A stretch of DNA of 56,641 nucleotides from an uncultured Clostridia bacterium (lineage in GTDB: Bacteria > Bacillota > Clostridia > TANB77 > CAG-508): contig CALXUC010000006.1 of NCBI GenBank assembly GCA_944391575.1, positions 1 to 56,641 of the forward strand, written 5' to 3'. The notes under the pieces are model-generated. The model saw nothing but the letters and a program-made list of their open reading frames with translations, ran no database searches and had not been told where the DNA came from. Shown piece after piece: positions 6,035 through 30,177 of this stretch. Position 1 is the stretch's first letter; each line of letters starts with the position of its first letter. The translations under genes and the position numbers were made by a program.

Positions 6035-9000
6035 ATGAAGAAAAACATTTCTATTATTTTAGTTTTTGTATTGTTAATGCAAATAATATTACCAATACAA
6101 ATAAGTAATGCAGCAAATGGAAGTACATTAATTACAACTTTTGGAATTACAATAACAACAAAAACAAGACCAGAAGAAATAACTTCAAAATATGGGGCAA
6201 GTCCTAAATTAATTACACCATCAGCATTTGGTGGAAATATGTACACATGGTATAAAGGAGATTATGAAGAAGTAATATACCTAGAAACAGATTCAGAGGG
6301 AACAGTTATAGCTGCTGGTGCAGTGTCAGATGACTTCACAAGTGATTTTTACTCAGCAGGAGACGAAGTACCGGGTGGAGGTACTGTAAATAGATATCAA
6401 GGAACTGTAGCAAAACAAGGCTTTCTTACAAATTATGCTAAAGGCGTAGTTGTGTATAACAAAGATGTATTAACTACAGAAAGAGTTAACCAATATTATA
6501 ATGAATACGTTTTAAACGAATATCATTATGATAAATACATGGCTGAACAATCTGTAATAATGTTAAATGCATTATTAAGAGAAGATGGCGCAGATACTAG
6601 AGCTGAATTTAGTAGTGAACTTTTCGATAAAGTAAGAAAAATAGGGCAAACAATGTCTATTGAAGATTATGCAGAACAAAACGGAAAAAGTATGTATTAT
6701 AAACAAGCTAGAACAGATTTTGGCTCAAGTGTTTTATATGCAGACTTACCAAATCCATTAAGACCAGCAGCATCAGCAGATAATTATTATCCAACAGAAG
6801 AGTTAAAATATGCGTATTTAGCATATGGAGTATCTCAAAATGAAGAAACTGGAAATTATACTTCTGGAATAGGCGGATTCTATATGTCTGAAAAATTATT
6901 TGAAGAAACAACAGAAGTATCGCTAACAGCAGAAGAAGAAACAAAATTAGAAAATGCAACAGAAGCATACATGGAATCAGTAGAAATATTTAATCAAAAT
7001 GGTGAAGATATTTATGAAGAAGAGCCAAATTACGCAACATTACCATTAAATGCAGGTAAAATTAAAGAAAACAAATTACAAGGTGCAGCAGAATTTTTAA
7101 ATGCAATAAGAGCAGGTGCTGGCTTAGGTGAAATAAGTTATAGTGCTGATTTAAGCGAATCTGCACAATATAAAGCAGTATTAACTGCGTATTTAACAGC
7201 AAATGGAATTAGTAATCCAACTCCTCATTATCCACCACAACCAGCAGGGGTAAGTGATGAATATTATAATATAGCACAAAAGTATATGTCTGGAGAAAAT
7301 TTATATAGTGGAGATATTATAACTTCAATCGCGCAAGCATTACATGACGGGGCTGGAGACCCAATTAATGCAGGACATAGATATAATTTATTAAATCCAA
7401 ATTGGACGACATTTGGAATAGGATACGCAAACGGACAGTCAGCACATAAACTTTCCGGTAGTGCATCAAGTAATGTCGACATTGTAGCCTGGCCAAGTGC
7501 AGGTATAACACCTACAGAAGCGTGGTATAGTGGAGGATATTGGACTTTTAAATTATATAGTAATAAATATTCAATACAAAGTAATACAACTGTAGAAGTA
7601 AAAAGATTAAATGATAATAAAACATGGGTTTTTGACGACAATGTAGATAGCAATAGTGATTTTGTTAGAGGTTCAAAAATATTATCATTTAGAAATGCAG
7701 ATTTAATAGGTGAAGACGGATTAGTATATGAAATAACAGTAAAGAATTTAAAAAATACTGAAAAGAATGCAGTAGAAGATTATACATATAGAGCAGTATT
7801 CAAATCTTTATATTCAGGAGTTAATTCATCATACCCAACAGAGGTACAACTAGATAAGTCAGAAATAACGGGTATAAAAGGTGCAGAAGCAGAATTGAAA
7901 GTAACATTTCAACCAGAAACTGCAACAGAAGTAACTACCAAATGGTCTTCATCAAATCCTAGTGTTGCTACTGTAAACCAAAGTGGAATAGTAACATTTG
8001 TAGGAACAGGAACAACTACAATAACAGTAGAAACGCTAAATGGTAAAAAAGATACATGTACAGTAAGAGGAGTTTCAACTGTATCAGGGCTTAAAATAGA
8101 ACCTGCAGAAATAACATTAAAAGAAGAACAAATACAAAAATTAGAATTAATTGAAACAAGTGATATAGTAATAAATGAAAATGATGTAAAATGGACAGTA
8201 TCAGATCCTACTGTTGCTACAATAAATAAAGGCATGTTAACAATACTAGAAGACACAGCTGGAAGTACAATTACAGTAACAGCAGAATATGGTGGAAAAA
8301 AGGCAACATGTACAGTAAACGTTATACAAAAGCGTAACACGAGGCCAACATTTAAATTAAGAGCTGATACATTATCTACCATAGAAAAAGGAGAAACAAA
8401 CGGAATAACATTATTACAAGAAGGCGAAAATACTAATATATCAAGTTTTGAATTAGACATAAATTATAATGCGGATAATTTAAAAGTGGCAAAAATAGAA
8501 CCACTTATCGATAACTTAAAAGCAGAAGTTAATACACCAGGAAAAGTTCATGTAACATTTGACTCAAATAACCAATTGATAGACATTAACAAAAACTTAC
8601 TATATATAACATTTGAAGTAATAACTCCATTAGCTTCAGACAACCAAATAGACGCAAGTGACTTAATCTATTACACGTTGGACAAAACTACTCCAACAAG
8701 TGGTACTGTTCAATATATAGCAAGAGTTAAATCATATAATGAAATACAAAATGTGAAAATTTCTAAAACTTCACATACATTTGAAAACTTAAATGAACAA
8801 ATTACATTAACAGCAACATTAGAACCAAACGAAAATATTAAAAATGACGAGATAAAATGGTCAACTAGTGATAGAGGCGTTGCTAGAGTAGATGACAACG
8901 GAAAAGTAACAGCAGTAGGATATGGAACAGCAACAATAACGGCAGAATCAGCTAATGGTAAAAAAGCAACATGTGTAGTAAACTTAGAAAAGAAAGAAGA

Positions 9001-9202
9001 ACCATATACATTAGGTGATATAAATTCAGACGGAACTATAAATACTCTAGATGCAATTTTAGTATTGCAATATATATCACATAAAACTACATTAACAGAT
9101 ACACAAAAATTAGCAGCAGATACAAGCAAAGACGGAACAATAAATACAGTAGATGCAATAAAGATATTACAATATGTATCGCATAAAATAACAGAATTTT
9201 AA
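6035..9202 (+). CDS. Secreted CAP-domain protein with Ig-like, cohesin and dockerin modules
   Basis: 1055 residues with AAAGGG at 6021. A signal peptide (about 1-27) leads to a CAP-associated N-terminal domain (FGITITTKTRPEE). A CAP/SCP domain follows (about 340-508; LNAIRAGAGL, GHRYNLLNPNW, WYSGGYWTF). Then come two BIG2 Ig-like domains (about 598-763; WSSSNPSVATV), a cohesin-like domain (about 769-895; FELDINYNADNLKVAKI), a third BIG2 (about 900-985) and a type I dockerin (about 989-1055) with two calcium loops (DINSDGTINTLDAI and DTSKDGTINTVDAI). Carrying both cohesin and dockerin, it could bind a scaffold and recruit another dockerin protein. It begins the surface locus that includes the anchored cohesin protein at 11769. 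The substrate of the CAP domain is unknown. Confidence 0.85.
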   Translation: MKKNISIILVFVLLMQIILPIQISNAANGSTLITTFGITITTKTRPEEITSKYGASPKLITPSAFGGNMYTWYKGDYEEVIYLETDSEGTVIAAGAVSDDFTSDFYSAGDEVPGGGTVNRYQGTVAKQGFLTNYAKGVVVYNKDVLTTERVNQYYNEYVLNEYHYDKYMAEQSVIMLNALLREDGADTRAEFSSELFDKVRKIGQTMSIEDYAEQNGKSMYYKQARTDFGSSVLYADLPNPLRPAASADNYYPTEELKYAYLAYGVSQNEETGNYTSGIGGFYMSEKLFEETTEVSLTAEEETKLENATEAYMESVEIFNQNGEDIYEEEPNYATLPLNAGKIKENKLQGAAEFLNAIRAGAGLGEISYSADLSESAQYKAVLTAYLTANGISNPTPHYPPQPAGVSDEYYNIAQKYMSGENLYSGDIITSIAQALHDGAGDPINAGHRYNLLNPNWTTFGIGYANGQSAHKLSGSASSNVDIVAWPSAGITPTEAWYSGGYWTFKLYSNKYSIQSNTTVEVKRLNDNKTWVFDDNVDSNSDFVRGSKILSFRNADLIGEDGLVYEITVKNLKNTEKNAVEDYTYRAVFKSLYSGVNSSYPTEVQLDKSEITGIKGAEAELKVTFQPETATEVTTKWSSSNPSVATVNQSGIVTFVGTGTTTITVETLNGKKDTCTVRGVSTVSGLKIEPAEITLKEEQIQKLELIETSDIVINENDVKWTVSDPTVATINKGMLTILEDTAGSTITVTAEYGGKKATCTVNVIQKRNTRPTFKLRADTLSTIEKGETNGITLLQEGENTNISSFELDINYNADNLKVAKIEPLIDNLKAEVNTPGKVHVTFDSNNQLIDINKNLLYITFEVITPLASDNQIDASDLIYYTLDKTTPTSGTVQYIARVKSYNEIQNVKISKTSHTFENLNEQITLTATLEPNENIKNDEIKWSTSDRGVARVDDNGKVTAVGYGTATITAESANGKKATCVVNLEKKEEPYTLGDINSDGTINTLDAILVLQYISHKTTLTDTQKLAADTSKDGTINTVDAIKILQYVSHKITEF

Positions 9203-9261
9203 AAAATGAAAAAACGATACCGATGATTCCTGTGTGTGTCTGTTCACAAAAATAGAAGAAC

Positions 9262-9296
9262 AAAAAATAGTGAGAAATTTTCTTGCTATTTTTTTA
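9262..9296 (+). terminator. Rho-independent terminator
   Basis: AAAAAATAG and GAGAAA pair with TTCT and CTATTTTTTT around a short loop. It lies after the CAP/dockerin gene and before the gene at 9338. Confidence 0.65.
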
Positions 9297-9337
9297 ATTG
9301 TATAGTAAAATATATAAAGAAAAAGGAGGGCATAACA

Positions 9338-11044
9338 ATGATAAAAATACCATACGGAATATCAGGATTTGAAACAATAAGAAAAGAAGGATTTAAATAT
9401 GTAGACAAAACTAGCTATATAAGAAATATAGAAACAGAAAGATATTGTATGTACGTTCGTCCAAGGAGATTTGGAAAAACGCTATTTACAACAACATTAG
9501 ACGCATACTATTCTATAGATAAAAAAGAAGAATATGAAGAATTGTTTAAAGGCTTGGATATATATAATAATCCTACAGAAAAGAAAAATAGTTATTATGT
9601 ATTAAATTTTAATTTTTCTGGAATGTTATTTAATACTAAAATAGACATAAGTGAATTAGAAAAAAGTTTTAAAGAAAAGGTATATCAACATTGTAGAAAG
9701 TTTGTTGAAAGATATAAATTGAATATAAATGTAGAAAATAAGGAAACTGCAGCAAGTACATTAGAAAATGTGTTGGTAGGTTTTCAAGGCTTGCACTTAG
9801 AAAATAACATATATATAATAGTAGATGAATATGATCACTTTACGAATGGTTTGTTAGAAGGAGAATGTAAAACTTTCCTAGATATATTAGGAAGAGCAGG
9901 ATTTGTAAGAGCATTTTATGAGGTTATAAAAGCATATACAGATTATAACGTAGTAGAAAGATTTTTTGCAACAGGAGTAGCACCACTAACACTAGATAGT
10001 ATGACAAGCGGATTTAACATAACAACTTCTTTAACATTAAATCCTCAATATGTTGCAATGACAGGTTTAACAGAAGAAGAAGTAAAAAATCTTGTAAGCG
10101 AAGTAGAAGAAAATAAAGAACAACAAGAAATGATTTTAAAAGATTTAGTAGATAATTATGATGGATATAAATTTTCTAAAAGTAATTTAGAGCATATATT
10201 TAATCCAACATTAGTAATGTATTATTTAAATAATTATGTAAAATTAGGAATAAGACCAGAAGAAATAGTAGATAAAAATTTATCAACAAATGCAGAAAAA
10301 TTAAAAAATCTAATGTTAATAAAAACACCAGAAGATAATTATAAACAAATACAAAAATTAATATTAGAAGGAGAAGTAAGTGGAAATATAGTACAAAGTT
10401 TTGAACTAGATAAAACATTTAGCTCATACGATTTTTTATCACTATTATTCTACAATGGCTATATAACAATAAAAGAAGTAGAACCAATAAGTAACTTAGT
10501 AAAATTTGTTGTACCAAATTTCGTATCATATAATTTATATGCACAATATATGTTAAACTTAATAAGTGCAGAAAATAGAGTAAAAGTAGATATAGGAGAT
10601 TTGCAAAGAGCTTTAGTACCATTTGCAACAGAAGGAAATTTAGTGCCAATATTGGAGTGGGTAAGAAATTTCTTAATGTATTCAAGCGTAAGAGATAAAG
10701 AAAATTTTAAAGAGCAAGATTTAAAACATATAATACACTTAATATTTACCTTAACAACGCAATATGATGTATATACAGAATTTCCTAGTTTACAAGGTTA
10801 TACGGATGTATATATTAGAAACAAAGATAGAAGCTTAAATATATGTGAAGGACTCATAGAATTAAAGTATTTAAGTAAAAAAGATAGCAGCAAAGCAAAG
10901 ATAGAAAAGGCTAAAAATGAAGCTAAGGAACAATTGAAAAATTATATGAAAGATGAAAGACTACAAGCAAATAAGAATCTAAGAAAATATGTAGTAGTAT
11001 TTGTAGGATTTGAAGAATTTTATGTAGAAGAGATTGAGAAATAA
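9338..11044 (+). CDS. AAA-ATPase-like protein with C-terminal PD-(D/E)XK nuclease module
   Basis: Start chosen at ATG 9338, right after AAGGAGGG; 34 further residues upstream are open but have no ribosome site. 568 residues. The N-terminus (IPYGISGFETIRKEG, then YVDKT) and the P-loop-like RPRRFGKTLF define the AAA-ATPase-like family. VDEYDHF is the likely Walker B. The C-terminus (GYTDVYI, then LIELKYL) is the PD-(D/E)XK module, as in the fragment at the window start. It sits between surface genes but has no signal peptide, so it is probably unrelated to them. The role of this abundant family is unknown. Confidence 0.85.
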   Translation: MIKIPYGISGFETIRKEGFKYVDKTSYIRNIETERYCMYVRPRRFGKTLFTTTLDAYYSIDKKEEYEELFKGLDIYNNPTEKKNSYYVLNFNFSGMLFNTKIDISELEKSFKEKVYQHCRKFVERYKLNINVENKETAASTLENVLVGFQGLHLENNIYIIVDEYDHFTNGLLEGECKTFLDILGRAGFVRAFYEVIKAYTDYNVVERFFATGVAPLTLDSMTSGFNITTSLTLNPQYVAMTGLTEEEVKNLVSEVEENKEQQEMILKDLVDNYDGYKFSKSNLEHIFNPTLVMYYLNNYVKLGIRPEEIVDKNLSTNAEKLKNLMLIKTPEDNYKQIQKLILEGEVSGNIVQSFELDKTFSSYDFLSLLFYNGYITIKEVEPISNLVKFVVPNFVSYNLYAQYMLNLISAENRVKVDIGDLQRALVPFATEGNLVPILEWVRNFLMYSSVRDKENFKEQDLKHIIHLIFTLTTQYDVYTEFPSLQGYTDVYIRNKDRSLNICEGLIELKYLSKKDSSKAKIEKAKNEAKEQLKNYMKDERLQANKNLRKYVVVFVGFEEFYVEEIEK

Positions 11045-11173
11045 ACAAAATGTACATATTTTTATTTGTAATAATGCAATAAAATTAAAAATACAAAAAT
11101 AATAAGGAGATAGTTTGAAAAAGCACTTTCATAACTATGTGTGACTTTTTGCGAGGCGAGAAAGGAATTTATT

Positions 11174-11566
11174 ATGAAAACGGTTTTTAAATTAATAGGT
11201 ATCATTTTATTAGTGATTGTATTTATTTTTGTTGCGATGCTTACATATTTTATAACGATTTCTGTGATAGAAAAACACAAAAAATATTATTCTACTGAGA
11301 GATATGAAGAAATATCTACTATCAATAATAACAAAAGTCTTGTGGGGTTGTCCGAAAATGAAGTTATTGATTTATTAGGCGAGCCAGAATATAAACATAT
11401 TGCCGAACAAAATGATATAGATCTTTCATATTACAAATATGTTGCAGGTTCAATATATAAAAAAACAATGTTTGGAGATACATATGGCTATAAATATTAT
11501 TATTTTATAGTGTGTTTCAACAAAAACAGTATAGTAATAAACACTTTTATTAAAGAAAGCACATAA
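11174..11566 (+). CDS. Small membrane-anchored protein, BamE/SmpA-like tail
   Basis: Start at ATG 11174 after AAAGGAA. 130 residues with one N-terminal membrane segment (about 5-28). The segment LVGLSENEVIDLLGEPEY resembles the short helix-turn motif of SmpA/BamE-like small proteins, which occurs in many unrelated secreted proteins. The rest is Tyr-rich. A strong terminator follows at 11577. No function can be assigned. Confidence 0.65.
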   Translation: MKTVFKLIGIILLVIVFIFVAMLTYFITISVIEKHKKYYSTERYEEISTINNNKSLVGLSENEVIDLLGEPEYKHIAEQNDIDLSYYKYVAGSIYKKTMFGDTYGYKYYYFIVCFNKNSIVINTFIKEST

Positions 11567-11576
11567 AAATCCATAT

Positions 11577-11616
11577 ATAAATAAAGGCAAACTGTAACAG
11601 GATTGCCTTTATTTAT
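11577..11616. terminator. Strong rho-independent hairpin
   Basis: ATAAATAAAGGCAA (11577-11590) is the exact complement of TTGCCTTTATTTAT (11603-11616). The AT ends allow action in both directions. Confidence 0.8.
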
Positions 11617-11690
11617 GCCTAAAATCATTATAAAACAATAAAGGGTAGAAGGCAAGATACAAAAAATAGAAAAAATAAATAAAAAAATAC

Positions 11691-11719
11691 TTGCATATAG
11701 AATATCGTTGTGATATAAT
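11691..11719 (+). promoter_or_regulatory. SigA-type promoter of the scaffold gene
   Basis: TTGCAT (11691-11696), 17 bases, TATAAT (11714-11719), 50 bases before the start at 11769. Confidence 0.75.
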
Positions 11720-11768
11720 TACACTGAAAAATCGATATACAAAAATTAAAAAAAGGAGAGGTAAAAAA

Positions 11769-13469
11769 ATGGAAACAAAAACTAGAAAGTTATTAGCAGT
11801 AATAACATTAATTGCACTTGTGTTAAGCATGTTACCAATTAGCACAAGCCATGCAGCAACAAAGCCAAACATTAAAATTGATTCTGTAGAAACAACAGAA
11901 CAAGAGGTAACAGTAGATTTAACATTAGATCAAACAATTACAACAGCATCATTAAATACATCAGTAAAATTTGACAATACAAAATTAGAAGTAACAAAAA
12001 TTGAAGTTGGAAGCGTAATAGCAAATAGAGTATTAGATGCACCAACAGTTGAAAATTCAAACACACAAAGTGAAGTTATGCTTATCGCTATATCAGGTAC
12101 AAACTTTGATATACAACCAGGCACATTAATGACATTAACATTTAAAATTAAAGACGGAGTAACAGGTGTACAAAATTTAGATGTAGTAGTTAATGAAATG
12201 TATAACGATACATATCAAGAAATCAGTGACACAGTAACAGCAACATCAGGCACAATTAATGTAATAGTTCCAATTACAGGAGTAACATTAGATAAAACAA
12301 CAGGAATATTAAATGTAGGTGAATCAGAAACATTAGTAGCTACAGTTACTCCAGATAACACAACAGAAGATAAAACAGTAACATGGACATCAAGTGATCC
12401 AGCAGTAGCAACAGTTGCAAATGGAGTAGTTAATGCAGTTGCACCAGGAACAGCAACAATAACAGCTACAGCTGCAGATGTATCAGCTACATATACAGTT
12501 GAAGTTAAACAACCATTAACAGGAATAGCTTTAAATGCAACAAGTGAAAACTTATTAAAAGGTCAAGAATTTGATTTAAAAGTTTCATATGTACCTGTAA
12601 ATGCTACAGATAAAGTAGCCATAACATGGGAATCAAGTGATGAAACCGTTGCAACAGTAGAAAATGGAAAAGTTAAAGCTTTAAAAGAAGGTACAGCAAT
12701 AATTACAGCTACAGCAAAAGTTGATGGAACAAATAGAGAGTACACAGCTACATGTGAAATAAATGTAGAAGAAATTAAATTAGACTCAATCGCATTAGAC
12801 ACAAAAGATTTTGATTTATTTTTGGGAGATTCAAAACAATTATCAGTAGTATATAACCCAGAAAATACAACAGATTCAAAAGATGTTGTATGGACATCAA
12901 GCGATGAAACAGTAGCAACAGTAGAAAATGGAAAAGTTACAGCTTTAAAAGTTGGAACAGCAGTTATAACAGCAACAGTAGGAGATAAAACAGCAACAGT
13001 TACAGTAACAGTTCCAGTAGTTTTAATTGAAGGAATTGAAGCAACATTAGATAACGCTACAATAGAAGTTGATGGAACAGCAAATATAACAATTACTACA
13101 AATCCAGAAAAAGTAACTGAAGAAGTAGTTGCAGTATATGAATCTAGCGACGAAACAATAGCTACAGTAGATGAAAACGGAGTAATAACAGGTGTAAAAC
13201 CTGGTAAAGCAACAATAACAGTTACAGTAAATGACGAATTTACACAAGAAGTTGAAATCGAAGTAGTAGAAAAAGTAGTAGAAGTGCCTGAAGAACCTGC
13301 AACACCAGAAACTCCAGCTACTAACCCTGATGACGAAACAACAAATAATGAAGAAAATTCAGTATTACCAGATACAGGAGATATTGCTATTGGAGTATTT
13401 GTAGTATTAATGGTAGCTTCACTAACAGGAATTGTTTTAGTTGTAAGAAAACAACATAAAAATAAATAA
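11769..13469 (+). CDS. Cell-wall-anchored cohesin scaffold protein (LPXTG)
   Basis: Start chosen at ATG 11769 after AAAGGAGAGG; the frame is open upstream but passes through the promoter. 566 residues: signal peptide (about 1-31), cohesin-like domain (about 33-165; VTVDLTLDQTITTASLNTS, then MLIAISGTNFDIQPGTLM), four BIG2 Ig-like domains (about 170-495, each with W-SSD--VATV-NG), a Pro/Thr/Glu-rich linker, then the sorting signal LPDTG at about 533, a hydrophobic stretch and KQHKNK. It should be anchored to peptidoglycan by a sortase, probably the one at 14378. Its single cohesin would display one dockerin partner. That the partners are the dockerin proteins next to it is inference. Confidence 0.88.
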   Translation: METKTRKLLAVITLIALVLSMLPISTSHAATKPNIKIDSVETTEQEVTVDLTLDQTITTASLNTSVKFDNTKLEVTKIEVGSVIANRVLDAPTVENSNTQSEVMLIAISGTNFDIQPGTLMTLTFKIKDGVTGVQNLDVVVNEMYNDTYQEISDTVTATSGTINVIVPITGVTLDKTTGILNVGESETLVATVTPDNTTEDKTVTWTSSDPAVATVANGVVNAVAPGTATITATAADVSATYTVEVKQPLTGIALNATSENLLKGQEFDLKVSYVPVNATDKVAITWESSDETVATVENGKVKALKEGTAIITATAKVDGTNREYTATCEINVEEIKLDSIALDTKDFDLFLGDSKQLSVVYNPENTTDSKDVVWTSSDETVATVENGKVTALKVGTAVITATVGDKTATVTVTVPVVLIEGIEATLDNATIEVDGTANITITTNPEKVTEEVVAVYESSDETIATVDENGVITGVKPGKATITVTVNDEFTQEVEIEVVEKVVEVPEEPATPETPATNPDDETTNNEENSVLPDTGDIAIGVFVVLMVASLTGIVLVVRKQHKNK

Positions 13470-13490
13470 TTTAATATAAATTAATATGAT

Positions 13491-13526
13491 AAAATGCACA
13501 AAAGAGTAATACTTTATGTGCATTTT
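13491..13526 (+). terminator. Rho-independent terminator
   Basis: AAAATGCACA with AAAG pairs with CTTT and TGTGCATTTT, followed by ATTGT. It lies directly after the scaffold gene. Confidence 0.75.
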
Positions 13527-13562
13527 ATTGTATAAAAAAATATATGAAAGGTTAGAAATATT

Positions 13563-14360
13563 ATGAAAAAAAGTAAAATTAAAATATTATTTATAATTAT
13601 GCTAATACTTATTTTGGGAATGACATTAAATTATAAAACTTATGCAGTAACAGATTTTTCCGTAAATGTAAGTGAACAGATTGAACTTAGCGTATCTAAT
13701 GTTTCATCTACAGATGCGGAATGGGTAATGGAAGATACTAGTATTGCTAGAGTAGTTCGCTCAAATGCTGCGGGAGTGTCAATTGGAAGTTATGTTAATT
13801 ATACATATTCAGTAACAGTATTAGGAGTTGAAAAAGGCATTACTACTTTAAAATTAGTAAATGCAACTGGTGAAACTTTGGCAAGTACAACTATAGAAGT
13901 AACAAGAAATATTAGAAATATTTCATTCGATAAAAGTAGTTTAAGACTTGAACCAGGAGACACATATCAATTAACACCTAGATATTATCCTATAAATCCA
14001 GATAACACTGCTGATATAGAATGGGTAAGTTCTGATAATGAAGTTCTTACTGTTGATGAAAATGGAAATATAGAAGCTTTAAAAGAAGGAAATGCAACTG
14101 TAACAGCAACTGTAGGAGAATATTCTGCAACAATAAATGTAAAAGTGAAAACTCTTCCTGAATATACACCCGGAGATGTAAATTCAGATGGAACAATAAA
14201 TACTTTAGATGCAATTTTAGTTTTACAATCTACATCAAATAAAGTAGAACTAGATGATGCCGGATTTTTCGCTGCAGATGTAAATGTAGATGACCAAATT
14301 AATACATTAGATGCAATAATGATATTACAATATATATCAAATAAAATAAGTAACTTTTAA
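13563..14360 (+). CDS. Small secreted dockerin protein with Ig-like domain
   Basis: 265 residues after GAAAGG. A signal peptide (about 1-29) precedes an unrecognised beta-rich segment (about 30-110), one BIG2-like domain (about 115-195; IEWVSSDNEVLTV) and a dockerin (about 200-265) with loops DVNSDGTINTLDAI and DVNVDDQINTLDAI. No enzymatic domain is seen, so it may be a structural adaptor. It lies between the anchored cohesin gene and the sortase gene and probably shares an operon with the sortase (17-base gap). Confidence 0.8.
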   Translation: MKKSKIKILFIIMLILILGMTLNYKTYAVTDFSVNVSEQIELSVSNVSSTDAEWVMEDTSIARVVRSNAAGVSIGSYVNYTYSVTVLGVEKGITTLKLVNATGETLASTTIEVTRNIRNISFDKSSLRLEPGDTYQLTPRYYPINPDNTADIEWVSSDNEVLTVDENGNIEALKEGNATVTATVGEYSATINVKVKTLPEYTPGDVNSDGTINTLDAILVLQSTSNKVELDDAGFFAADVNVDDQINTLDAIMILQYISNKISNF

Positions 14361-14377
14361 TATAAGGATAGTCAATA

Positions 14378-15118
14378 ATGAAAGCAAGTCGATTTAAAGA
14401 AAAAAAGAAAATGAAATTGTCATTGAAAATATTATTATTAGTATTTATTTGCGTATTTTTATATTCATTATATAATATAATATATTGGATGAAAAGTAAT
14501 AATGAATTAAAGGAGCTAGAAACAGGTATATTTGCAGAAGTTGTACAAGAGGTAGAAGTAGAAAATGGTGAACCTGAAACAACTATAGATTTTGAAACAT
14601 TAACGCAAATAAATAGTGATGTTGTTGGATGGATAAGTATAGAGAACACAGGTATTAATTACCCAATTTTGCAAGCCAACGATAATGAATATTATTTAAA
14701 AAGAGATTTGTATAAAAATAGTAACTCTTGCGGAAGTATATATTTAGACTGTGATACTAATAAAGATTTTTCAGATCCGAATACAGTTATATATGGTCAT
14801 CATTTAACAAGAGGTGGAATGTTTACGGAACTAGATAAAATATATAATGGTGAATTAGGAAATGAAGTATATATACAAATATATACCTTAGAAGATTCGT
14901 ATAAATATCAAGTAATTGCCTCATACGTTGCAGAACCTAGTCTAGAACTTGTAAAAAGAACTTTTAACAATAATGAAAGAGAGAAATATCTAGATAATGC
15001 CATAAACAATAGTAAAGTAGAATTTAAAAAAGTAGAAAATATGCAAGAAAATATATTAACATTAGTAACATGTCACGGAACGCAAAGAACTGTTGTTAAT
15101 GCAATAAGGGTAGAATGA
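14378..15118 (+). CDS. Sortase, class B-like
   Basis: 246 residues with one N-terminal membrane segment (about 9-29). The core VGWISIENTGINYPILQ, then YGHHL (catalytic His), then LTLVTCHGTQRTVV (catalytic Cys in TLVTC, Arg just after) gives the full His-Cys-Arg set. The spacing and the GWI-I-TGI-YPI start fit class B/D transpeptidases. It should cleave a sorting signal such as LPDTG of the 11769 protein and attach it to the wall. It is tightly linked to dockerin genes on both sides, which supports a dedicated role in this surface system. Confidence 0.88.
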   Translation: MKASRFKEKKKMKLSLKILLLVFICVFLYSLYNIIYWMKSNNELKELETGIFAEVVQEVEVENGEPETTIDFETLTQINSDVVGWISIENTGINYPILQANDNEYYLKRDLYKNSNSCGSIYLDCDTNKDFSDPNTVIYGHHLTRGGMFTELDKIYNGELGNEVYIQIYTLEDSYKYQVIASYVAEPSLELVKRTFNNNEREKYLDNAINNSKVEFKKVENMQENILTLVTCHGTQRTVVNAIRVE

Positions 15119-15157
15119 AAGGGGGATAGATATTAGTTTTATAAACTAATATTAAAT

Positions 15158-17530
15158 ATGAAAAAATCTTTAACATATTTATTAATAATTATATTTTTAT
15201 CAGTAAGTATAGCTATACAACCTATAGTATACGCTGAAGATGAAGCAGAAAAGGAAATACCAACTGGATATCAAAAAGCTGAAGATTTAGAAATAGAAAA
15301 TTCAAAAATAAATATACTAAATGAAGGAACAGAGAGTTCAAGTTATCCTCAAACTGAGGGTATGGTTTCAATGTTATCAGCAACAACTACTGATAATATT
15401 GTGCAAAGCCCTATGAGAGATATTTATATGGGAAATCAAGTATCAGTAGATGAAGATAATGAAAATCTTTATTTCGTATACGGAGACAGACTTTCTAGAT
15501 ATTCTTTAAAAGACAATACATTAACTCAAATATATAGTTTGCAATCTGAATATTATTCGAACTATAATACAAGTTCCAAAAATGGAGTTGTATATATGTA
15601 CAAAAATACAAAAGAAAGTGAAACAGGAAAAAGATTTTGTGAAATATATAAATATGATGTAATATCTAATACAGAGCTACCTTCTGTGACTATTGAAATA
15701 CCTGAAGATCTTGGTGACGACACATTGGCTGATTTAGTTATAGATAATAACGGATATATGTATTTCAGATATGGAGCAGCAAATGCTTCATTAATTAGTT
15801 TCGATAAAAATGGTAATTATGTTGATAGACTTGAAAACAAAAATCAAAGTGATTATGCAATGTCATATTGTGTAAGCTATAACGATATGGCTATATATTA
15901 CGTATTACCTAATTTACCAGGAAGATCAGGATATGTAAAAATAGATAATGGAAAATTTGTGGATAGAACTTTTTGGATAAATGATATAGGACAAAGTTGG
16001 AGATATTCTGAGGACGGTACATATGCGATTGACCATATAGGAAATGTAGTTAGATTTATAGAAGATTCAACATCTAATGTAGGCGTTAAAATGGAAGTAC
16101 TACTTTATACAGGAAGAGGACTTGTAGATTATAATCCTGCTGGCGTATTTGACGGAGATTATTTATATGCAGTAGGCGAGAATAATACTTTCTTAAAATT
16201 TAATTTAAATACAAGAAAAGTAGAAGGAAGATATGCGTTACAAAGTTCAACATTAGAAGATAAATTTATATATGATTATAAAGTTTCAGACGGTAAGTTA
16301 TATGTTGTATTAAACGAAAGTAATGGATTTGACTCATATTATTATATTGTAACAAAAGATTTAGAAACAGATATTGAAACTGTTACAACAATAGATATAA
16401 ATACTCACGAGGCATTAACACATAGTAAACAAGATGTTATGGATAGAGCTAAAGCTGCAATGCCTGCATATGATTATAATACAAGTATATATGAAGAAGA
16501 ACCACATTATACAGGAGCACCTTACGTAGCAGGTTCTTTAAAAGAACAAGTAGAAAAAGATACATTAAACCAACTTAACTTTTATAGATGGCTTACAGGA
16601 TTAAATGAAGTTTCTTTAAATACTCAATATATGGATAGATCTCAAAAAGGAGCTGTTATTCAAGCTAGATTAAGAGAATTAACACATACTCCAGCTAAAC
16701 CTGCAGATATGGATGATGAATGGTATAACGAAGCATATGATGGTACAAATGCAGGAAGAGATTATTCTGGAAATGTAGCGTATGGTACAAGAATAGATAG
16801 AGTACCATTAGGATTTATATTAGATACTAATAATATATCGAACAATGTAGGTCATAGAAGCAGTATGTTAGACCCAAGAAGCGATAAAACAAGCTTTGGA
16901 TATTGTAATTATTATTCAGCAATGTCTATGTACACTACTAGCGAAGATTTAGGAAATGATGATGTGTGGTATTCATGGCCAACACCTGGGTATTTCCCAG
17001 TTGAAAATATGGATCCTGATATGATGTGGTCAATACAATTAAATGGTGATTATTCATTCTATTCTGGTGGAGTTGGATTAACATTGACATTAACATCTGG
17101 CGATAATAAAAAGTATGAAATACCACTTGATGAATTATATTATGACTCATATTATAACAACCTTTACTTCGATGTGCCAACAGAATTATTAAATTATTTA
17201 ACAGATGGTGGAAATAGCTATAAGCCAGGAAAAACAGTTACGGTAGATGTATGTGGGTTAATAGATTCAGAGTATAACAACATAAATATACATTACACAA
17301 CAGAATTTATTGAATCTATCGAAAAACCAGCATATACATTAGGAGACATAAACTCTGATGGTAACATAAACACATTAGATGCAATTTTAGTATTACAACA
17401 TATATCTCACAAAGCTACTTTAACAGATTCACAAAAATTAGCTGCAGATACAAGTAAAGATGGAATAATAAACACTGTAGATGCGATAAAAATATTACAA
17501 TATGTTTCTCATAAAATAACAGAATTTTAG
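15158..17530 (+). CDS. Secreted propeller-like and CAP-domain protein with C-terminal dockerin
   Basis: 790 residues. A signal peptide (about 1-26) is followed by a repetitive beta-rich region (about 75-400) with propeller-like strands such as NLYFVYGDRLSRYSL and YLYAVGENNTFLKFN. A CAP/SCP domain follows (about 465-640; LNQLNFYRWLTGLNEVSL, then NNVGHRSSMLDPRS). A dockerin closes the protein (about 725-790; DINSDGNINTLDAI and DTSKDGIINTVDAI), nearly identical to that of the 6035 protein. The matching dockerins suggest both bind the same cohesin. The gene follows the sortase gene by 39 bases after GGGGGA. Confidence 0.85.
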   Translation: MKKSLTYLLIIIFLSVSIAIQPIVYAEDEAEKEIPTGYQKAEDLEIENSKINILNEGTESSSYPQTEGMVSMLSATTTDNIVQSPMRDIYMGNQVSVDEDNENLYFVYGDRLSRYSLKDNTLTQIYSLQSEYYSNYNTSSKNGVVYMYKNTKESETGKRFCEIYKYDVISNTELPSVTIEIPEDLGDDTLADLVIDNNGYMYFRYGAANASLISFDKNGNYVDRLENKNQSDYAMSYCVSYNDMAIYYVLPNLPGRSGYVKIDNGKFVDRTFWINDIGQSWRYSEDGTYAIDHIGNVVRFIEDSTSNVGVKMEVLLYTGRGLVDYNPAGVFDGDYLYAVGENNTFLKFNLNTRKVEGRYALQSSTLEDKFIYDYKVSDGKLYVVLNESNGFDSYYYIVTKDLETDIETVTTIDINTHEALTHSKQDVMDRAKAAMPAYDYNTSIYEEEPHYTGAPYVAGSLKEQVEKDTLNQLNFYRWLTGLNEVSLNTQYMDRSQKGAVIQARLRELTHTPAKPADMDDEWYNEAYDGTNAGRDYSGNVAYGTRIDRVPLGFILDTNNISNNVGHRSSMLDPRSDKTSFGYCNYYSAMSMYTTSEDLGNDDVWYSWPTPGYFPVENMDPDMMWSIQLNGDYSFYSGGVGLTLTLTSGDNKKYEIPLDELYYDSYYNNLYFDVPTELLNYLTDGGNSYKPGKTVTVDVCGLIDSEYNNINIHYTTEFIESIEKPAYTLGDINSDGNINTLDAILVLQHISHKATLTDSQKLAADTSKDGIINTVDAIKILQYVSHKITEF

Positions 17531-17598: not shown

Positions 17599-17618
17599 AA
17601 CAGAGGAGGTAAATGATT

Positions 17619-20600
17619 ATGTTAAATTTAAAAAGTAAAATTAAAATAGTAACAATGGCAATATTGTCCCTTTATATATTGTTAATGAGTAACTATTCAT
17701 TAGCTAACGATTACAGTATGACATTATCAGGCACTACTGATGTTATTGGTGTGCAAAATGATATTAGTCAATGGATACAACCAAATGCTCCAATTTATTT
17801 TGAAGATTTAAGAGATAATAGAGCTTTAATTTGTAATGGACATGGTATTCCTTTACCTTCAAGAAAAAGTAACAGTAATCCTTTAAAAGATGCTACTTTA
17901 GAAACTCATGGTATAAATGTTGAAATAGATCAATTAAGGGAAGATAATAAGATTCAAAGAAATCCAGCTTATAGTTATATGGAAAATCAACCGAATGCTT
18001 CTAACCCTTATGGTACAACAGGTAGTGTAGTAACTACAAGTAGAACACAAGCATTATATAATGATAAAGGTGAAAAGGAATTAAGTCCTAGAGAAGCTTA
18101 CGTTTTAGCACATCAAAAAGATACAAGTACATATCCAGATACAGTGCAATTATCTCATTGGGGAGTTACAAAATACGTTCCAGGGGCTGATTTAAGTAAC
18201 GAGGCTGTAACAATATCACCATCAGAAAGAGAAGAAGCTAAAAACTTAGTTAATGAAGCTATAAGATATGAAGAAGCCATGAAACAATTAGAAGAATTTA
18301 AGAATAAAAACAATGGCAAATCAATAGTAGACAAAACTGATTATGATAATGTACATCCAGGTTACAACAAAATAACTGGAAAATACATAGTAGGTCCTTT
18401 TACTTGGGATTATGTAAGAGCTTATTATAAACCATCTGCTTTAGGACAAAGTCAAACAGTTAATGAAGATGGTGTAGTAAGTTATATTGGTATTACAGAT
18501 ATAAAATGGTATGCTGATGACGAAAAAACAATAGAAATAAAAAATGTAAATTACGTATATGAGGATAGAAATTTAGGAGAGGGAGATGAAAATTATAAAT
18601 ATCCATATCCTAATCAACCATTTTACATAGAATTTAGTAAAGCTGAAAATCCAAATGTAAAAGAAGTTTCAAAAGCTAGTATAAGTTTAGACATTATGAA
18701 TGCAGAAGGTACAGCACATGAATTAGAAGGAACATTTAATGACGTAAATTGGATTGCTAAAGATGACCCTATTAAATGTACTTGTACAAGTGCAGTCTGT
18801 GTTCACGGTATGAAAGGTCACATGATTAAACATACAAGTGGTTCTTTCTGGGGAACAAGTACATATTATACAAGATGTCCTGAAATTTATTGTGCAGAAC
18901 ATAAAGATAAAAGAATTGGTGACGGACACTTAAAAGGACATGATTTCTATATTATTGGTGAAATTGTAAATTTAGGAACAGAAGCACAACCATTATATGC
19001 TATTCCAGTATCAAAAATTACAATTAAAAATAATGTAGCTGATATGGAATTGGGCTCTCCATATTCTTATGCACCATTAGTTCCATTTCCAGTAGGTGTA
19101 CCTAGAGAAGAAGTGTGGGAAGAAGTCCCATGGTTACCAATAGAACCACCAGATCCTAATGAACCGGAAGAGCCAGAAGAACCTGATAATCCAGATGAAG
19201 AAATAGAAAATCCAGGTATTCCTTTAATAATGGAAATCGCTGGTGAAGTTTGGGTAGATAACCCAACAGGTAAAGAATCTTTAGCAAATGGTGTTAGAGA
19301 TGAGGGCGAAAAAGGTAAAGCGAACGTTGAAGTATATTTATATAATAAATTAAATGATAGTGAACCAGTTGCAAAAACAATTACAGATTATGATGGTCAA
19401 TATTCATTTGGTTATGTTGAAATTGGTGAAGAATATTATGTAGAATTCGTATATGACGGTATGACATATAAAACAACAAAATATTTAAACTCAGCAATAA
19501 CAGAAAGCTTACCAGGAAACTTATCTGATATAAATCAAGCATATATAGATAATCCTGAAAGTTATTTAAATGCTTCACATGCAGTTGAAAATGCTTTAGA
19601 GAGGGATACATTCAATTCAAAATTTAATGTAATTTCAAATAATATGGCAACAGGTGTAACTGGATTACAAACACCATTAACATACTATAATGTAGTCTCA
19701 TCTCAAGGAACAATGTCATCTTTAATTACAACAGACTCTGCATATATGACATTACCAGAATTTAAAATGAGTGCAAGAACAAGTACAACAGGTTTATATT
19801 TCCCATTAAATGATTCATATTATGTAGATGATGAAAACTTAAATTTACCAACTCAAAATGGACAAGAATATAATTATGTTAGAACTTATGAAGGTTTAAA
19901 ACATATTAATTTGGGATTAGTAAAAAGAGAACAAGGTGACTTTGCAGTTAAAAATGATACTTATCAAACAATAGTAGCATATAAAGGAAGCAATTCAAGT
20001 TTTGAACATAATAATAAAACAACAAATGCTTTAACATATGATGCAAATACTAGAACAGCTGCATACTATACAGATAAACAATATACTCAATTATTAAATA
20101 GAGACGATTATAATTGGAAATACGATACATATTATGGCGAAAATGCAACAATATCAAGTTCAATATATGATGCTTCAGATGAATTAAGTGTATATATAGA
20201 ATATAAATTTTTAATAAGAAATCAATCAACATTAGAGTGGGGAACAATTAAAGAATTATCAAATTACTTTGATAAAGATTTAAAATATAGTACTTCGTAT
20301 GACCATATAGGTATGACATCTTGGATTGAAACTAAAATGAATGGAAGCTCAGAAGGAACAAAACAAGAAATTATATGGGAATATGGTGAAGATAAAGACG
20401 GATTTAGTACTATTTATACAGATGACTTGGCAGATTTGCCTATGTTTTCAGGTAGCACAATAGAAGTACATTTAATTTTACAAGTTGGAAAAGATGAAGC
20501 AAGAAATATAATATTAAATAATGATAGTAATCCAAATTATGATAACATATTAGAAATTACAAAATTCAGTGTAAATGAAGGACTTGTAGATAGAGATTCA

Positions 20601-22883
20601 AATCCAGGAAGTGCAGACTTAAATAATACAAAAACATTTGAAGATGATACTGATAATGCACCATATGTAAGAATTTTAATAGATGATAGTGAAGAAGCAA
20701 AATTAGGTAACATTATTAGTGGTAATGTATTTGAAGATTTAAAAACAAGTGATTCAGTATTAGTTAATAATATGTTTACAGGAAATGGTATAAAAGATGA
20801 AAATGAAAAAGGTATTGCAAATGTAAAAGTTGAATTGATTGAAGTCTTAATGGATAAAGAAAGTAATAGAGAAGCTGAATTAATTGTAAGAGACGCAATT
20901 AGAACAGATGAAAATGGAAATTATAGTTTTACAAACTTACCAGCAGGTACTTATAAAGTTAAATTTACTTACGGCGATGAAGAGCAATTAAGTAAAGATA
21001 TTACATATAATGGTCAAGACTATAAATCTGTTTCTACAGATACAATAAAACAACAATACCAAAATAACCCAATGGAAGTTATGCTTTTAATAGATACATC
21101 TAGTGGTATGAAATATAATAATAGATTAACATCTATAAAAGATGCTTCTAAACAATTGATAAATTCAATTTATACAAAAGTACAAAAAGCCAAAGTGGGA
21201 ATTTCATTCTTCTCAGAACCAGAATCTAATACTGTAAATAATACAGGATTAATAGAAAAACCATATGTTGATACTTTAATAAGTGCATTAGATAAAGATT
21301 ATAATAATTACGGAGCTAATTTAGCAGATACAATACAAAATGCTTTAAATACATTTAATAAAGAATCTAGTACTTCAAGAGTATTAATTATATTAACAGA
21401 TGGCTATATGGAAGATACAGAGGATGATAGAGAAATGATAGAACAAGCCAAAGAACAAGGCGTACAAGTTATATCAGTTTTAACCTCTATGGATGAATGG
21501 TCAGAAGATGTATTTGGTAATGAATATAGCCCTGTACCAAACAAATTATATAATATAAGCGATAAGTATATATCAGATTATATTTCTGAGGTAGTATTAG
21601 AAGATACTTTATTAGCATTAGAGAAAACATTACCTAACTTAACAGATGGTAAAGATGTTCAAACAGAATATGTTGTATCTAATGATAGTAAAGTTGGAGA
21701 TATTCATACAAGACAACAAAATATTGAGTATACAGAAGTTATGGTAAATGAAAATGGTCAAATTGTAGATGGACAAGATACAAGTAATTTATCAGAATTT
21801 GCAAATAAAACTCAAATGACAGCAATAACACCAGTAAGAGTAGTTACATTATATAATGACAATTCAAGAACTGCAAATACTAATTTAGGTTTAATTGAGA
21901 GACCAAAAGTTGAATTACAAATCAAAGAAGAAATTGCAAGCTTTAAGATAACATTAGCTAATGGAACAGTTATAATTGACTCTGAAAAAGATTTAACACA
22001 AAATGTTTTAGAGTTAGAAGATAAAAAAGTAATTCACTTAGATGAGGAAATTATGCAAGGTGCTACTTTCACAATTAAATATAAAGTAACAGTAGTAAAT
22101 AACGGTCAAGTAGATACTTTAGGCGAATACTTCGATTACAATATGTTTGATAGTGCAGAAGTAGAAAAATATACAAAAACAGTACCAGTAAATGTTGGAA
22201 CAATTTATAATTACTACGACAACTTAGTATTTAGAACTGAAGAAAATAATAGAATGCCTATAGAAGTAAACCAAGTAGTATTAGACGGTATGCAATTTAC
22301 TAATGGTGTAATTGCAAATGCTGAAGAGTTAATAAGAGACGGAAAAGCATTCAATCCTGATGAAATTCATATAACAAGCAAAGTAAATGAAAACGGTGAA
22401 AAGACTATACTTGAAACAACTTTAGCATGGGAGCAAAAGAACCATATAGGAACAGCAGCAGATATTGATGATAAATTAAAGAAAAGCTTATTACAAGTAG
22501 TTTCTACTGAAAGCTTAAAAGACTTAGAATTATACCCAACTATAAGTAAAGAAGTATTAAGTGAAAATCATATAGCATCAGTAAGTACTTATATTCAATT
22601 TAGTAAAGTATTATCTGCAAATGATAGTACAGACACAATGAGTTATAATAACGCAGTAGAAATTGTAGAGCGACTTAACGATTTAGGTAGAAGAGACTAC
22701 ATAGGAGTTCCTGGTAACTACGTACCATTTGAAGAAATAACAGAATATGATTCAGCAAAAGCTGATAATGTATCTATAATGCCACCATTTGGTGGAGGAC
22801 AAAAAACTTACTATGCATTAATAGCTGGATGTATATTCATACTAGGTGCTGGTGTGGTATTCATAAAGAGAAAGATAATGTAA
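17619..22883 (+). CDS. Giant surface protein with SdrD-B-like domains, vWA domain and C-terminal anchor
   Basis: Start chosen at ATG 17619, 8 bases after AGGAGGT; ATG 17613 is too close. 1754 residues. It has a signal peptide (about 1-30), a long unrecognised region with a Cys/His cluster (CTCTSAVCVHGMKGH, CPEIYCAEH) that could bind metal, a Pro/Glu linker, and two SdrD-B/Cna-B-like domains (about 537-625 and 1027-1135; DENGNYSFTNLPAGTYKVKF). A vWA domain follows (about 1149-1330; LLIDTSSGM, LIILTDGY), whose MIDAS reads DTSSG and so lacks the last Ser of D-x-S-x-S. It ends with a membrane helix and KRKIM, preceded by MPPFGGG in place of LPXTG. It is probably a pilin- or adhesin-like protein. 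Confidence 0.82.
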   Translation: MLNLKSKIKIVTMAILSLYILLMSNYSLANDYSMTLSGTTDVIGVQNDISQWIQPNAPIYFEDLRDNRALICNGHGIPLPSRKSNSNPLKDATLETHGINVEIDQLREDNKIQRNPAYSYMENQPNASNPYGTTGSVVTTSRTQALYNDKGEKELSPREAYVLAHQKDTSTYPDTVQLSHWGVTKYVPGADLSNEAVTISPSEREEAKNLVNEAIRYEEAMKQLEEFKNKNNGKSIVDKTDYDNVHPGYNKITGKYIVGPFTWDYVRAYYKPSALGQSQTVNEDGVVSYIGITDIKWYADDEKTIEIKNVNYVYEDRNLGEGDENYKYPYPNQPFYIEFSKAENPNVKEVSKASISLDIMNAEGTAHELEGTFNDVNWIAKDDPIKCTCTSAVCVHGMKGHMIKHTSGSFWGTSTYYTRCPEIYCAEHKDKRIGDGHLKGHDFYIIGEIVNLGTEAQPLYAIPVSKITIKNNVADMELGSPYSYAPLVPFPVGVPREEVWEEVPWLPIEPPDPNEPEEPEEPDNPDEEIENPGIPLIMEIAGEVWVDNPTGKESLANGVRDEGEKGKANVEVYLYNKLNDSEPVAKTITDYDGQYSFGYVEIGEEYYVEFVYDGMTYKTTKYLNSAITESLPGNLSDINQAYIDNPESYLNASHAVENALERDTFNSKFNVISNNMATGVTGLQTPLTYYNVVSSQGTMSSLITTDSAYMTLPEFKMSARTSTTGLYFPLNDSYYVDDENLNLPTQNGQEYNYVRTYEGLKHINLGLVKREQGDFAVKNDTYQTIVAYKGSNSSFEHNNKTTNALTYDANTRTAAYYTDKQYTQLLNRDDYNWKYDTYYGENATISSSIYDASDELSVYIEYKFLIRNQSTLEWGTIKELSNYFDKDLKYSTSYDHIGMTSWIETKMNGSSEGTKQEIIWEYGEDKDGFSTIYTDDLADLPMFSGSTIEVHLILQVGKDEARNIILNNDSNPNYDNILEITKFSVNEGLVDRDSNPGSADLNNTKTFEDDTDNAPYVRILIDDSEEAKLGNIISGNVFEDLKTSDSVLVNNMFTGNGIKDENEKGIANVKVELIEVLMDKESNREAELIVRDAIRTDENGNYSFTNLPAGTYKVKFTYGDEEQLSKDITYNGQDYKSVSTDTIKQQYQNNPMEVMLLIDTSSGMKYNNRLTSIKDASKQLINSIYTKVQKAKVGISFFSEPESNTVNNTGLIEKPYVDTLISALDKDYNNYGANLADTIQNALNTFNKESSTSRVLIILTDGYMEDTEDDREMIEQAKEQGVQVISVLTSMDEWSEDVFGNEYSPVPNKLYNISDKYISDYISEVVLEDTLLALEKTLPNLTDGKDVQTEYVVSNDSKVGDIHTRQQNIEYTEVMVNENGQIVDGQDTSNLSEFANKTQMTAITPVRVVTLYNDNSRTANTNLGLIERPKVELQIKEEIASFKITLANGTVIIDSEKDLTQNVLELEDKKVIHLDEEIMQGATFTIKYKVTVVNNGQVDTLGEYFDYNMFDSAEVEKYTKTVPVNVGTIYNYYDNLVFRTEENNRMPIEVNQVVLDGMQFTNGVIANAEELIRDGKAFNPDEIHITSKVNENGEKTILETTLAWEQKNHIGTAADIDDKLKKSLLQVVSTESLKDLELYPTISKEVLSENHIASVSTYIQFSKVLSANDSTDTMSYNNAVEIVERLNDLGRRDYIGVPGNYVPFEEITEYDSAKADNVSIMPPFGGGQKTYYALIAGCIFILGAGVVFIKRKIM

Positions 22884-29087: not shown

Positions 29088-30177
29088 ATGAATAAAAAAT
29101 TTCTTAAAAATATTGATTGGAGCATTTTAATATGTAGTGTTATCTTACTAGTAATAGGATTGATAGCACTTTTTTCTGCTAGTAGTAATGATGATTACGA
29201 AGAATTTATAAAACAATTAGTTTTTGTAGGTATATCTATACCTGTATTAATAATTACAATGGCTATAAATTATAAGACTTTTGTAAAGCTATCACCATTT
29301 TTATATATAATAATATTAGGGCTGCTAGTAGGTGTGCTGTTTACACCTGAAAGAAATGGAGCGACTAGTTGGTTTGAAATAGGTGGCTTTACTTTACAGC
29401 CATCTGAATTTGCTAAAATCGTAATTGTTATATTTTTTTCATATATGGTATATAATTTTCAGAAAAAGGGAAAAAACGAAATAAATAAAATTTGGAAATT
29501 AGGAATACTATTATTCCTTGTAGCAGTACCTATAGTATTAATAGTAATGCAGCCTGATTATGGTACGGCTATGGCGTTTATTGTTTCAGTTATATTAATT
29601 TTATATATAGCAGGTATTGATAAAAAATATATTATAACTTGTATATTATTAGTTGTTATTTTACTTCCAATAATGTATTTCTTTGTATTACCTGACCATG
29701 CAAAATCAAGAATAGAAGTCTTTTTAGATCCATATTCAGACCCTAGAGGGGCGGGATATAATATTATACAATCTAAACTTGCAATAGGAGCTGGAGAATT
29801 ATTTGGAATGGGACTTTTAAATGGTAATCAAACTCAACTACGGTTATTTATATCCTAAAACTACTGATTTTATATTTGCTGTAGTTAGTGAAGAGATGGG
29901 ATTTATTATAGCATCTATTGTAATTATTGCGTATGTGTATATTTTACTTAGAATGATTAAAATTGCAAAAGAAACTAAAGATCCGATTGGCTCATATATA
30001 GTAATGGGTGTAATAGGAATATTCTTTTTTCATATGGTACAGAATATTGGTATGACAATGGGATTATTGCCTATAACAGGCGTACCTTTACTGCTATTAA
30101 GTTATGGCGGTAGCTCACTACTAACTAGCGTGATTTTAATAGGATTAGTTTTAAATATAGGAGCAAGAAAGTCTTAA
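29088..30177 (+). CDS. rodA: RodA-like SEDS peptidoglycan polymerase; +1 frameshift at CGG 29841
   Basis: In the zero frame the protein stops at 29858, and the remaining third continues in the +1 frame. Skipping the C of CGG 29841 restores [20 protein letters not shown], the signature of the RodA/FtsW/SpoVE family, giving 362 residues with about ten membrane segments. Other marks are [45 protein letters not shown] and a C-terminal [16 protein letters not shown]. The protein polymerises lipid II glycan strands for cell elongation, so a genuine pseudogene is unlikely unless a second copy exists. It follows minDE, a usual Clostridia order. Confidence 0.85.
29841..29843 (+). other. CGG +1 frameshift site 2 (rodA)
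   Basis: The zero frame reads CAA CTA CGG TTA TTT ATA TCC TAA. Skipping C gives CAA CTA GGT TAT TTA TAT CCT AAA ACT ACT GAT, that is Q-L-G-Y-L then TDF, as conserved in RodA/FtsW proteins. The preceding codon is CTA. Confidence 0.85.

Follow-up and report, generated by a model that had tools for sequence, protein, structure and literature searches.

A 56,641-nucleotide stretch of DNA, hereafter the window, is contig 6 (CALXUC010000006.1) of the genome of an uncultured Clostridia bacterium (assembly GCA_944391575.1, here G000; 1.84 Mb, 99.6% complete). At positions 6035-17530 it carries a locus in which every gene lies on the plus strand, as do all its features given below. With a probability of roughly 0.78, we read this locus as a non-cellulosomal, sortase-anchored cohesin-dockerin display of envelope proteins, in which receptor pairing and anchoring are inferred. 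A class-B-type sortase would link an LPDTG protein covalently to peptidoglycan, and the N-terminal cohesin of this anchor would be exposed on a stalk of Big_2 domains. Two secreted proteins with CAP domains, CAP1 and CAP2, and a small Big_2 protein would dock on that cohesin through closely similar, calcium-dependent dockerins, and CAP1 could recruit a further dockerin protein by a cohesin of its own, extending the assembly. The dockerin would thus act as a locus-specific address tag that is paired with its own cohesin; at other loci of G000, different tags and their own cohesins would hold peptidoglycan glucosaminidases and a papain-like protease. Such a display would most likely serve to keep envelope- or surface-acting proteins, presumably including the CAP proteins, on the bacterium's own wall and not to digest plant fibre.

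Anchor, sortase and dockerin proteins

The cell-wall anchor (11769..13469, 566 amino acids, ATG at 11769 behind GGAGAGG) consists of a signal peptide, a cohesin (11868..12263), four Big_2 domains and an LPDTG sorting motif (13365..13379), then a hydrophobic segment and a positively charged tail, the sequence features of a sortase-anchored protein. The cohesin scored 27.4-27.7 bits with PF00963 (cut-off 24.1 bits) both when scanned as an isolated segment and in the genome-wide search, and was not listed by hmmscan of the whole protein. Its AlphaFold2 (AF2) model, built from 13 aligned sequences, had a predicted local distance difference test (pLDDT) value of 80.8. The 49 best PDB matches of the model were all cohesins, with E-values down to 4e-7, and included 2xdh, a non-cellulosomal cohesin of Archaeoglobus, as well as a cohesin-like module from Clostridium perfringens. 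In a PDB hmmsearch with the cohesin alignment, cohesins likewise ranked first (E-value 1e-12). The anchor module therefore combines the Pfam match and the jelly-roll fold of a type I cohesin, and structure prediction bore out the original prediction of an LPDTG-anchored cohesin protein. That prediction also named a class B-like sortase, which was recovered as a protein of 246 amino acids (14378..15118) matching PF04203 and scoring 153.1 bits with the class B model TIGR03064 (cut-off 153.75 bits); its sequence holds TLVTC, YGHH and a downstream Arg.

CAP1 (6035..9202, 1055 amino acids) comprises a signal peptide, an N-terminal domain, a CAP domain, two Big_2 domains, a cohesin, another Big_2 domain and a dockerin. 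The CAP domain (7094..7441) belongs to the CAP superfamily, with PF00188 scores of 37.1 bits (E-value 7e-9) in the genome search and 33.9 bits in the protein scan (cut-off 21.1 bits). The internal cohesin (8417..8635; PF00963, 27.8 bits), which the original prediction overlooked, also exceeds the cut-off in the orthologs of two relatives, G006 (26.2 bits) and G070 (38.6 bits), in which CAP1 is kept at full length (80% and 44%, respectively). Because it bears this cohesin besides a dockerin of the INTLDAI/INTVDAI type (9011..9178; PF00404, 50.5 bits), CAP1 is predicted to be an adaptor.

CAP2 (15158..17530, 790 amino acids) has a signal peptide, a propeller-like region, a CAP domain and a dockerin, and its ortholog in G006 is 71% identical. 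The CAP domain (16517..16990) alone falls below the PF00188 cut-off; it is 32% identical to that of CAP1 over about 205 amino acids (E-value 4e-15), and the G070 relative of CAP2 passes PF00188, so CAP2 is assigned by homology as a CAP protein. A single-sequence scan of the genome contigs with CAP2 found no relatives. The propeller-like region (about amino acids 80-415, 15398..16399) gave an all-beta AF2 model of partly low pLDDT, whose Foldseek matches in the PDB were mainly beta-propellers (E-values about 1e-8, low template modelling scores). The earlier description of this region thus found support only at the level of the fold, with a model that is partly of low confidence. The CAP2 dockerin (17339..17506; PF00404, 45.2 bits) is 91% identical in protein sequence to that of CAP1. 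The third dockerin protein (13563..14360, 265 amino acids) matches PF02368 and PF00404, with its dockerin at 14169..14336 (41.9 bits).

All three dockerins exceed the PF00404 cut-off in the protein scan (38.6-43.9 versus 22.9 bits), and those of CAP1 and CAP2 have calcium loops of the type D-x-N/S-x-D-G-x-I-x-x-x-D in both repeats, as type I dockerins do. The claims of three dockerin proteins, two of them with CAP domains, were thereby confirmed. The last four genes of the locus, for the anchor, the Big_2-dockerin protein, the sortase and CAP2, are separated by gaps of 93, 17 and 39 bases, which is consistent with a single transcript. A promoter-like site, TTGACA-17-TATAAT, lies 47 bases upstream of the CAP1 gene (5959..5987). 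It is the sole 12/12 match among the 71 promoter-like sites of the region, all consensus matches only and fewer than the 80 expected by chance.

A proposed display without recognised fibre enzymes

The locus could be a remnant or minimal cellulosome, that is, the display part of a system whose fibre enzymes are encoded elsewhere or have been lost. Its type I cohesin and dockerin modules and its sortase-anchored single-cohesin protein would fit, since Ruminococcus flavefaciens ScaE is such a protein, an LPXTG surface protein with a single cohesin that receives dockerin proteins (PMC2930009). On the other hand, the original prediction that the locus lacks cellulases and other glycoside hydrolases was upheld, and GH5 and GH9 had no match in the whole G000 genome. 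The genome encodes 13 dockerins and six Pfam cohesins, spread over several loci. Pfam scans of the 13 dockerin proteins recognised no plant-polysaccharide enzyme or binding module in any of them; their other cargo includes peptidoglycan glucosaminidases, a papain-like protease and Big_2 domains. Every cohesin match of G000 lay singly in its open reading frame (ORF), so no protein with two or more cohesins was found, and no CBM3 was seen in the scanned cohesin proteins, although no search was aimed at CBM3. Neither the dockerin-borne fibre enzymes nor the multi-cohesin scaffoldin of a cellulosome was thus found in G000. In the relatives the dockerin cargo is similarly un-cellulosomal, in a tally that covers the 25 listed of 53 cargo families. 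We therefore rejected the remnant cellulosome as very improbable, given the scanned dockerin cargo without fibre enzymes and a genome without GH5 or GH9 matches. ScaE also differs in serving a large cellulosome with many fibre enzymes, whereas the window locus has no multi-cohesin scaffoldin or recognised fibre enzyme, includes a sortase gene and offers CAP proteins as cargo. The R. flavefaciens dockerin cargo does include LRR and transglutaminase-like proteins.

Conservation of the locus and of its dockerins

We compared G000 with 97 relatives of the same order and with 142 genomes from other orders of the class. A class B-type sortase (SrtB), a cohesin protein with a PxTG anchor and CAP-dockerin proteins occur together in G000, G006, G053 and G070, which represent two families of the order. 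In G006 the order is CAP1, anchor (LPNTG), SrtB and CAP2, without a Big_2-dockerin gene. G070, of the other family, has SrtB, a membrane cohesin, an anchor with a cohesin, nine Big_2 domains and SPDTG, and then CAP1 and CAP2. In G053, SrtB and a cohesin anchor with KPQTG are followed by five dockerin proteins. Similarity to CAP is clear in two of these and weak in one, and another has transglutaminase and LRR domains. G086 has a cohesin anchor with IPETG and two CAP-dockerin proteins. Homologous CAP proteins without a dockerin were found in G018, G046 and G047; the CAP-Big_2 proteins of G018 and G046, which were scanned, end in three SLH wall-binding repeats. SLH repeats thus replace the dockerin in these homologues, and therefore the dockerin occupies a place open to a wall-binding module.

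Within a genome, the CAP1 and CAP2 dockerins are closely matched in three of the four clean pairs, with identities of 91% in the window, 96% in G006 and 90% in G086, against 53% in the fourth, that of G070; within the G053 set they reach 87-96%. The CAP domains, on the other hand, track orthology: between the window and G006 they are 84% identical for CAP1 and for CAP2, compared with 28-34% within a genome. The dockerin tree groups the same-genome pairs with support of 0.69-1.00, short sequences making such trees weak. At the DNA level the two window dockerins differ by 22 synonymous and 8 non-synonymous codons, with non-synonymous (dN) and synonymous (dS) divergences of 0.059 and 0.876. The G006 pair differs by 19 synonymous and 4 other codons (dN 0.042, dS 0.719), and orthologous dockerins of the window and the G006 species have dN of 0.10-0.11 at similar dS. 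Residues specific to each species (e.g., LDA/LDS and SHK/AHK, in both repeats) shift jointly in the CAP1 and CAP2 dockerins. DNA that has drifted while the proteins stayed alike, together with joint residue changes, would be expected if both dockerins face one cohesin receptor that differs between species.

Several points weigh against the proposed display. The sortase lies 0.65 bit under the curated class B cut-off. CAP1 is split from the rest of the locus by an AAA-ATPase-like/PDDEXK_9 gene (9236..11044) and a small ORF (11141..11566), which is not so in G006. The CAP locus is patchy, any CAP2 match being confined to 11 of the 97 relatives. The CAP1 and CAP2 dockerins of G070 are only 53% identical, a value still above their identity to any other dockerin. 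Finally, gene conversion could explain the matching of the dockerins.

If the dockerins were alike merely through gene conversion or recent duplication, no shared receptor would be needed. The similarity boundary is sharp at the start of the dockerin, which fits the exchange of a cassette, and the same cassette is borne by a decayed gene elsewhere in G000. This gene, at C50 (L029:1627-3225), encodes a glucosaminidase close to that of another locus, C52, yet ends in a dockerin of the window type. A single in-frame stop codon interrupts it, a calcium ligand is missing from its second dockerin repeat, and it has the look of a dockerin swap between enzymes that has since decayed. Among themselves the window dockerins share 59-91% identity, compared with 20-34% to the dockerins of the other G000 loci apart from C50. 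The synonymous differences between the CAP1 and CAP2 dockerins rule out a recent conversion, however, and a dN/dS of 0.07 in the window indicates that the protein sequences were still being held alike well after any exchange. G006 repeats the pattern (dN/dS 0.06), the same helix positions being filled by other residues. An ancient conversion followed by purifying selection would give the same pattern, but such selection again implies a common partner. Matching without a shared receptor is therefore improbable, and we keep to the display on a common anchor cohesin.

Parallel loci in the genome and the order

The expectation of a sortase-anchored surface assembly free of plant-polysaccharide enzymes drew support from the cohesin fold, the conservation in two families, the matched dockerins and the SLH replacement. 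It was incomplete in that the window locus is one of several parallel cohesin-dockerin loci in G000 and in most genomes of the order. At C39 (L027:4841-10197), an LPKTG cohesin gene is followed by a sortase gene, a glucosaminidase-dockerin gene (SagB-like, with SH3 and Big_2 domains) and a second cohesin gene. The C39 and C52 cargo consists of SagB-like glucosaminidases with SH3 domains, similar to NCBIfam NF052642 at scores far under its cut-off, and both places additionally encode cohesin-like membrane proteins. The profile of one cohesin group, coh52, retrieved no cohesin from the PDB, and it is assigned to the cohesin fold through the similarity of its profile to another group, coh39b, which is weak in the PDB but passes Pfam in several genomes. 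A mirror-tree comparison of the glucosaminidase dockerin with its two cohesins gave weak partial correlations of 0.12 and 0.16 and did not single out a partner. At C13 (L028:3545-7742), a papain-like protease with a dockerin has as neighbours another class-B-type sortase and a beta-helix protein with a VPDTG tail. The dockerin cargo at C11 is Big_2, and several other dockerin proteins of G000 are without known domains.

Dockerins are present in 84 of the 97 relatives compared with 69 of the 142 class genomes outside the order (Fisher p 8e-10), and Pfam cohesins in 67 of the 97. The commonest dockerin cargo of the order is the SagB-like glucosaminidase, whose full four-gene operon was found in 63 of 80 loci from named uncultured Clostridia records. 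At 40 further loci a cohesin-family gene adjoins all 21 glucosaminidase-dockerin genes and 14 of the 32 other dockerin genes, counts that contig ends depress. The other cargo among the families listed includes papain-like proteases (4/32), N-acetylmuramoyl-L-alanine amidases (3), LRR proteins (3) and CAP proteins (2). We also noted in G067 an open-ended ORF of 663 amino acids (L193:2244-4232) with at least eight tandem dockerin-like matches.

Taken further, these data may hint, though we consider it rather unlikely, at an order-wide use of cohesins and dockerins to address proteins to the own envelope of these reduced-genome, uncultured gut Clostridia. Each genome would contain several loci, every one of them with a private dockerin type, a separate anchored cohesin and, in many cases, a separate sortase, and with wall hydrolases, proteases or CAP proteins as cargo. 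If this were true, cellulosomes would represent one specialised application of a more ancient system for display on the wall.

Own envelope or host

Within the display, the CAP assembly and the dockerin-borne hydrolases might act on the bacterium's own peptidoglycan or wall polymers. This possibility, which we hold tentatively, draws on the prevalence of the glucosaminidase as cargo, encoded in one operon together with a sortase and an LPxTG cohesin, and on the amidases and papain-like proteases. The SLH repeats in place of the dockerin also point to the wall, and in G018 and G047 the SLH-CAP gene adjoins a glucosaminidase gene. The window locus itself, however, has no hydrolase, and action of CAP proteins on peptidoglycan is presumed. 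Alternatively, the CAP proteins, the propeller and the Big_2 stalks may be adhesins or immune-active surface proteins that serve host or community interaction, in line with the roles in adhesion, signalling or host interaction that the original prediction proposed. In many organisms CAP proteins function extracellularly, and the Ig-like stalks, the propeller-like domain and the VWA/SdrD_B protein encoded by the next gene (17613-22883) would suit such a role. However, a promoter-like site of its own precedes the gene of this VWA/SdrD_B protein, the other loci examined have no relative of it, and receptor binding by the CAP, propeller and Big_2 proteins is putative. We regard host interaction as a somewhat weaker guess and slightly favour the envelope, because the cargo of the sister loci consists of glucosaminidases, amidases and cysteine proteases.

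Comparison with known systems

The cohesins, dockerins and sortase are of ordinary kinds, and ScaE-type anchors, adaptor scaffoldins and dockerin-borne proteases or wall hydrolases are documented in or near cellulosomes. R. flavefaciens, for example, attaches an NlpC/P60 protein to ScaE by an X-dockerin (PMC3573020). According to a citation in PMC6403190, Ruminococcus champanellensis cellulosomes contain dockerin-bearing cell-wall hydrolases; these resemble the peptidoglycan hydrolases of the sister loci but are, as cited there, cellulosome parts. Scaffoldin-containing genomes without conventional cellulosomes are known from Lachnoclostridium MSJ-17, Paenibacillus guangzhouensis and Limihaloglobus (PMC11557425). 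They resemble G000 in having cohesins and dockerins alongside hardly any fibre enzymes or none, and the P. guangzhouensis adaptors, with cohesin, dockerin and an N-terminal enzyme, resemble CAP1. They differ in having glycoside hydrolases or redox domains and SLH or transmembrane anchors, and PMC11557425 describes neither CAP cargo nor a sortase gene accompanied by locus-specific dockerin types. The class B sortase of Clostridioides difficile cleaves (S/P)PXTG (PMC4155245), compared with LPDTG, LPNTG, SPDTG and KPQTG in the anchors here. Its reported substrates are direct adhesins and hydrolases, not cohesins; the activity of the present sortase is predicted from its sequence.

What is distinct here is that no fibre-degrading system is present, that the cargo is CAP proteins and that the arrangement is repeated in loci with their own dockerin types. 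In the open-access literature we found no report of CAP-dockerin proteins or of such a system, although the review of Peer et al. 2009 (cited in PMC2930009) lies outside this coverage and absence is not established. Cohesin-dockerin pairs have been studied almost wholly as the glue of cellulosomes, and the locus and its sisters offer a compact, testable case in which such pairs would hold CAP proteins alongside proteases and wall hydrolases; these gut bacteria are known chiefly through metagenomes. The matched and unmatched dockerins of one genome would allow a test of the specificity code, and protein engineering might gain orthogonal parts from the pairs.

Neighbouring genes

The AAA-ATPase-like gene within the locus has no counterpart at the G006 locus and looks like a mobile insertion, because similar ORFs occur near C39 and C50. 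Downstream, the VWA/SdrD_B protein is a surface protein of 1756 amino acids with SdrD_B and VWA domains, whose gene at 17613 directly follows a second strong promoter-like site (a consensus match only). Its C-terminus has PPFGG, then hydrophobic residues and a positively charged tail, and no canonical sorting motif is present there. We left this gene out of the system owing to the promoter-like site and the lack of a counterpart at the related loci examined. Upstream, at 2403-4536, two ORFs resemble Mutator-type (IS256-like) transposases, the first confirmed by Pfam and apparently partial, and the locus may sit near a mobile element. A gene of the FtsW/RodA family at 29088-30177 appears to be split into two overlapping ORFs (256 and 118 amino acids) by a frameshift or an assembly error. 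At 49207-55723, a weak ArdC-N-like protein is followed by an N6-methylase/SNF2 helicase protein of 1435 amino acids, a combination typical of a mobile element.

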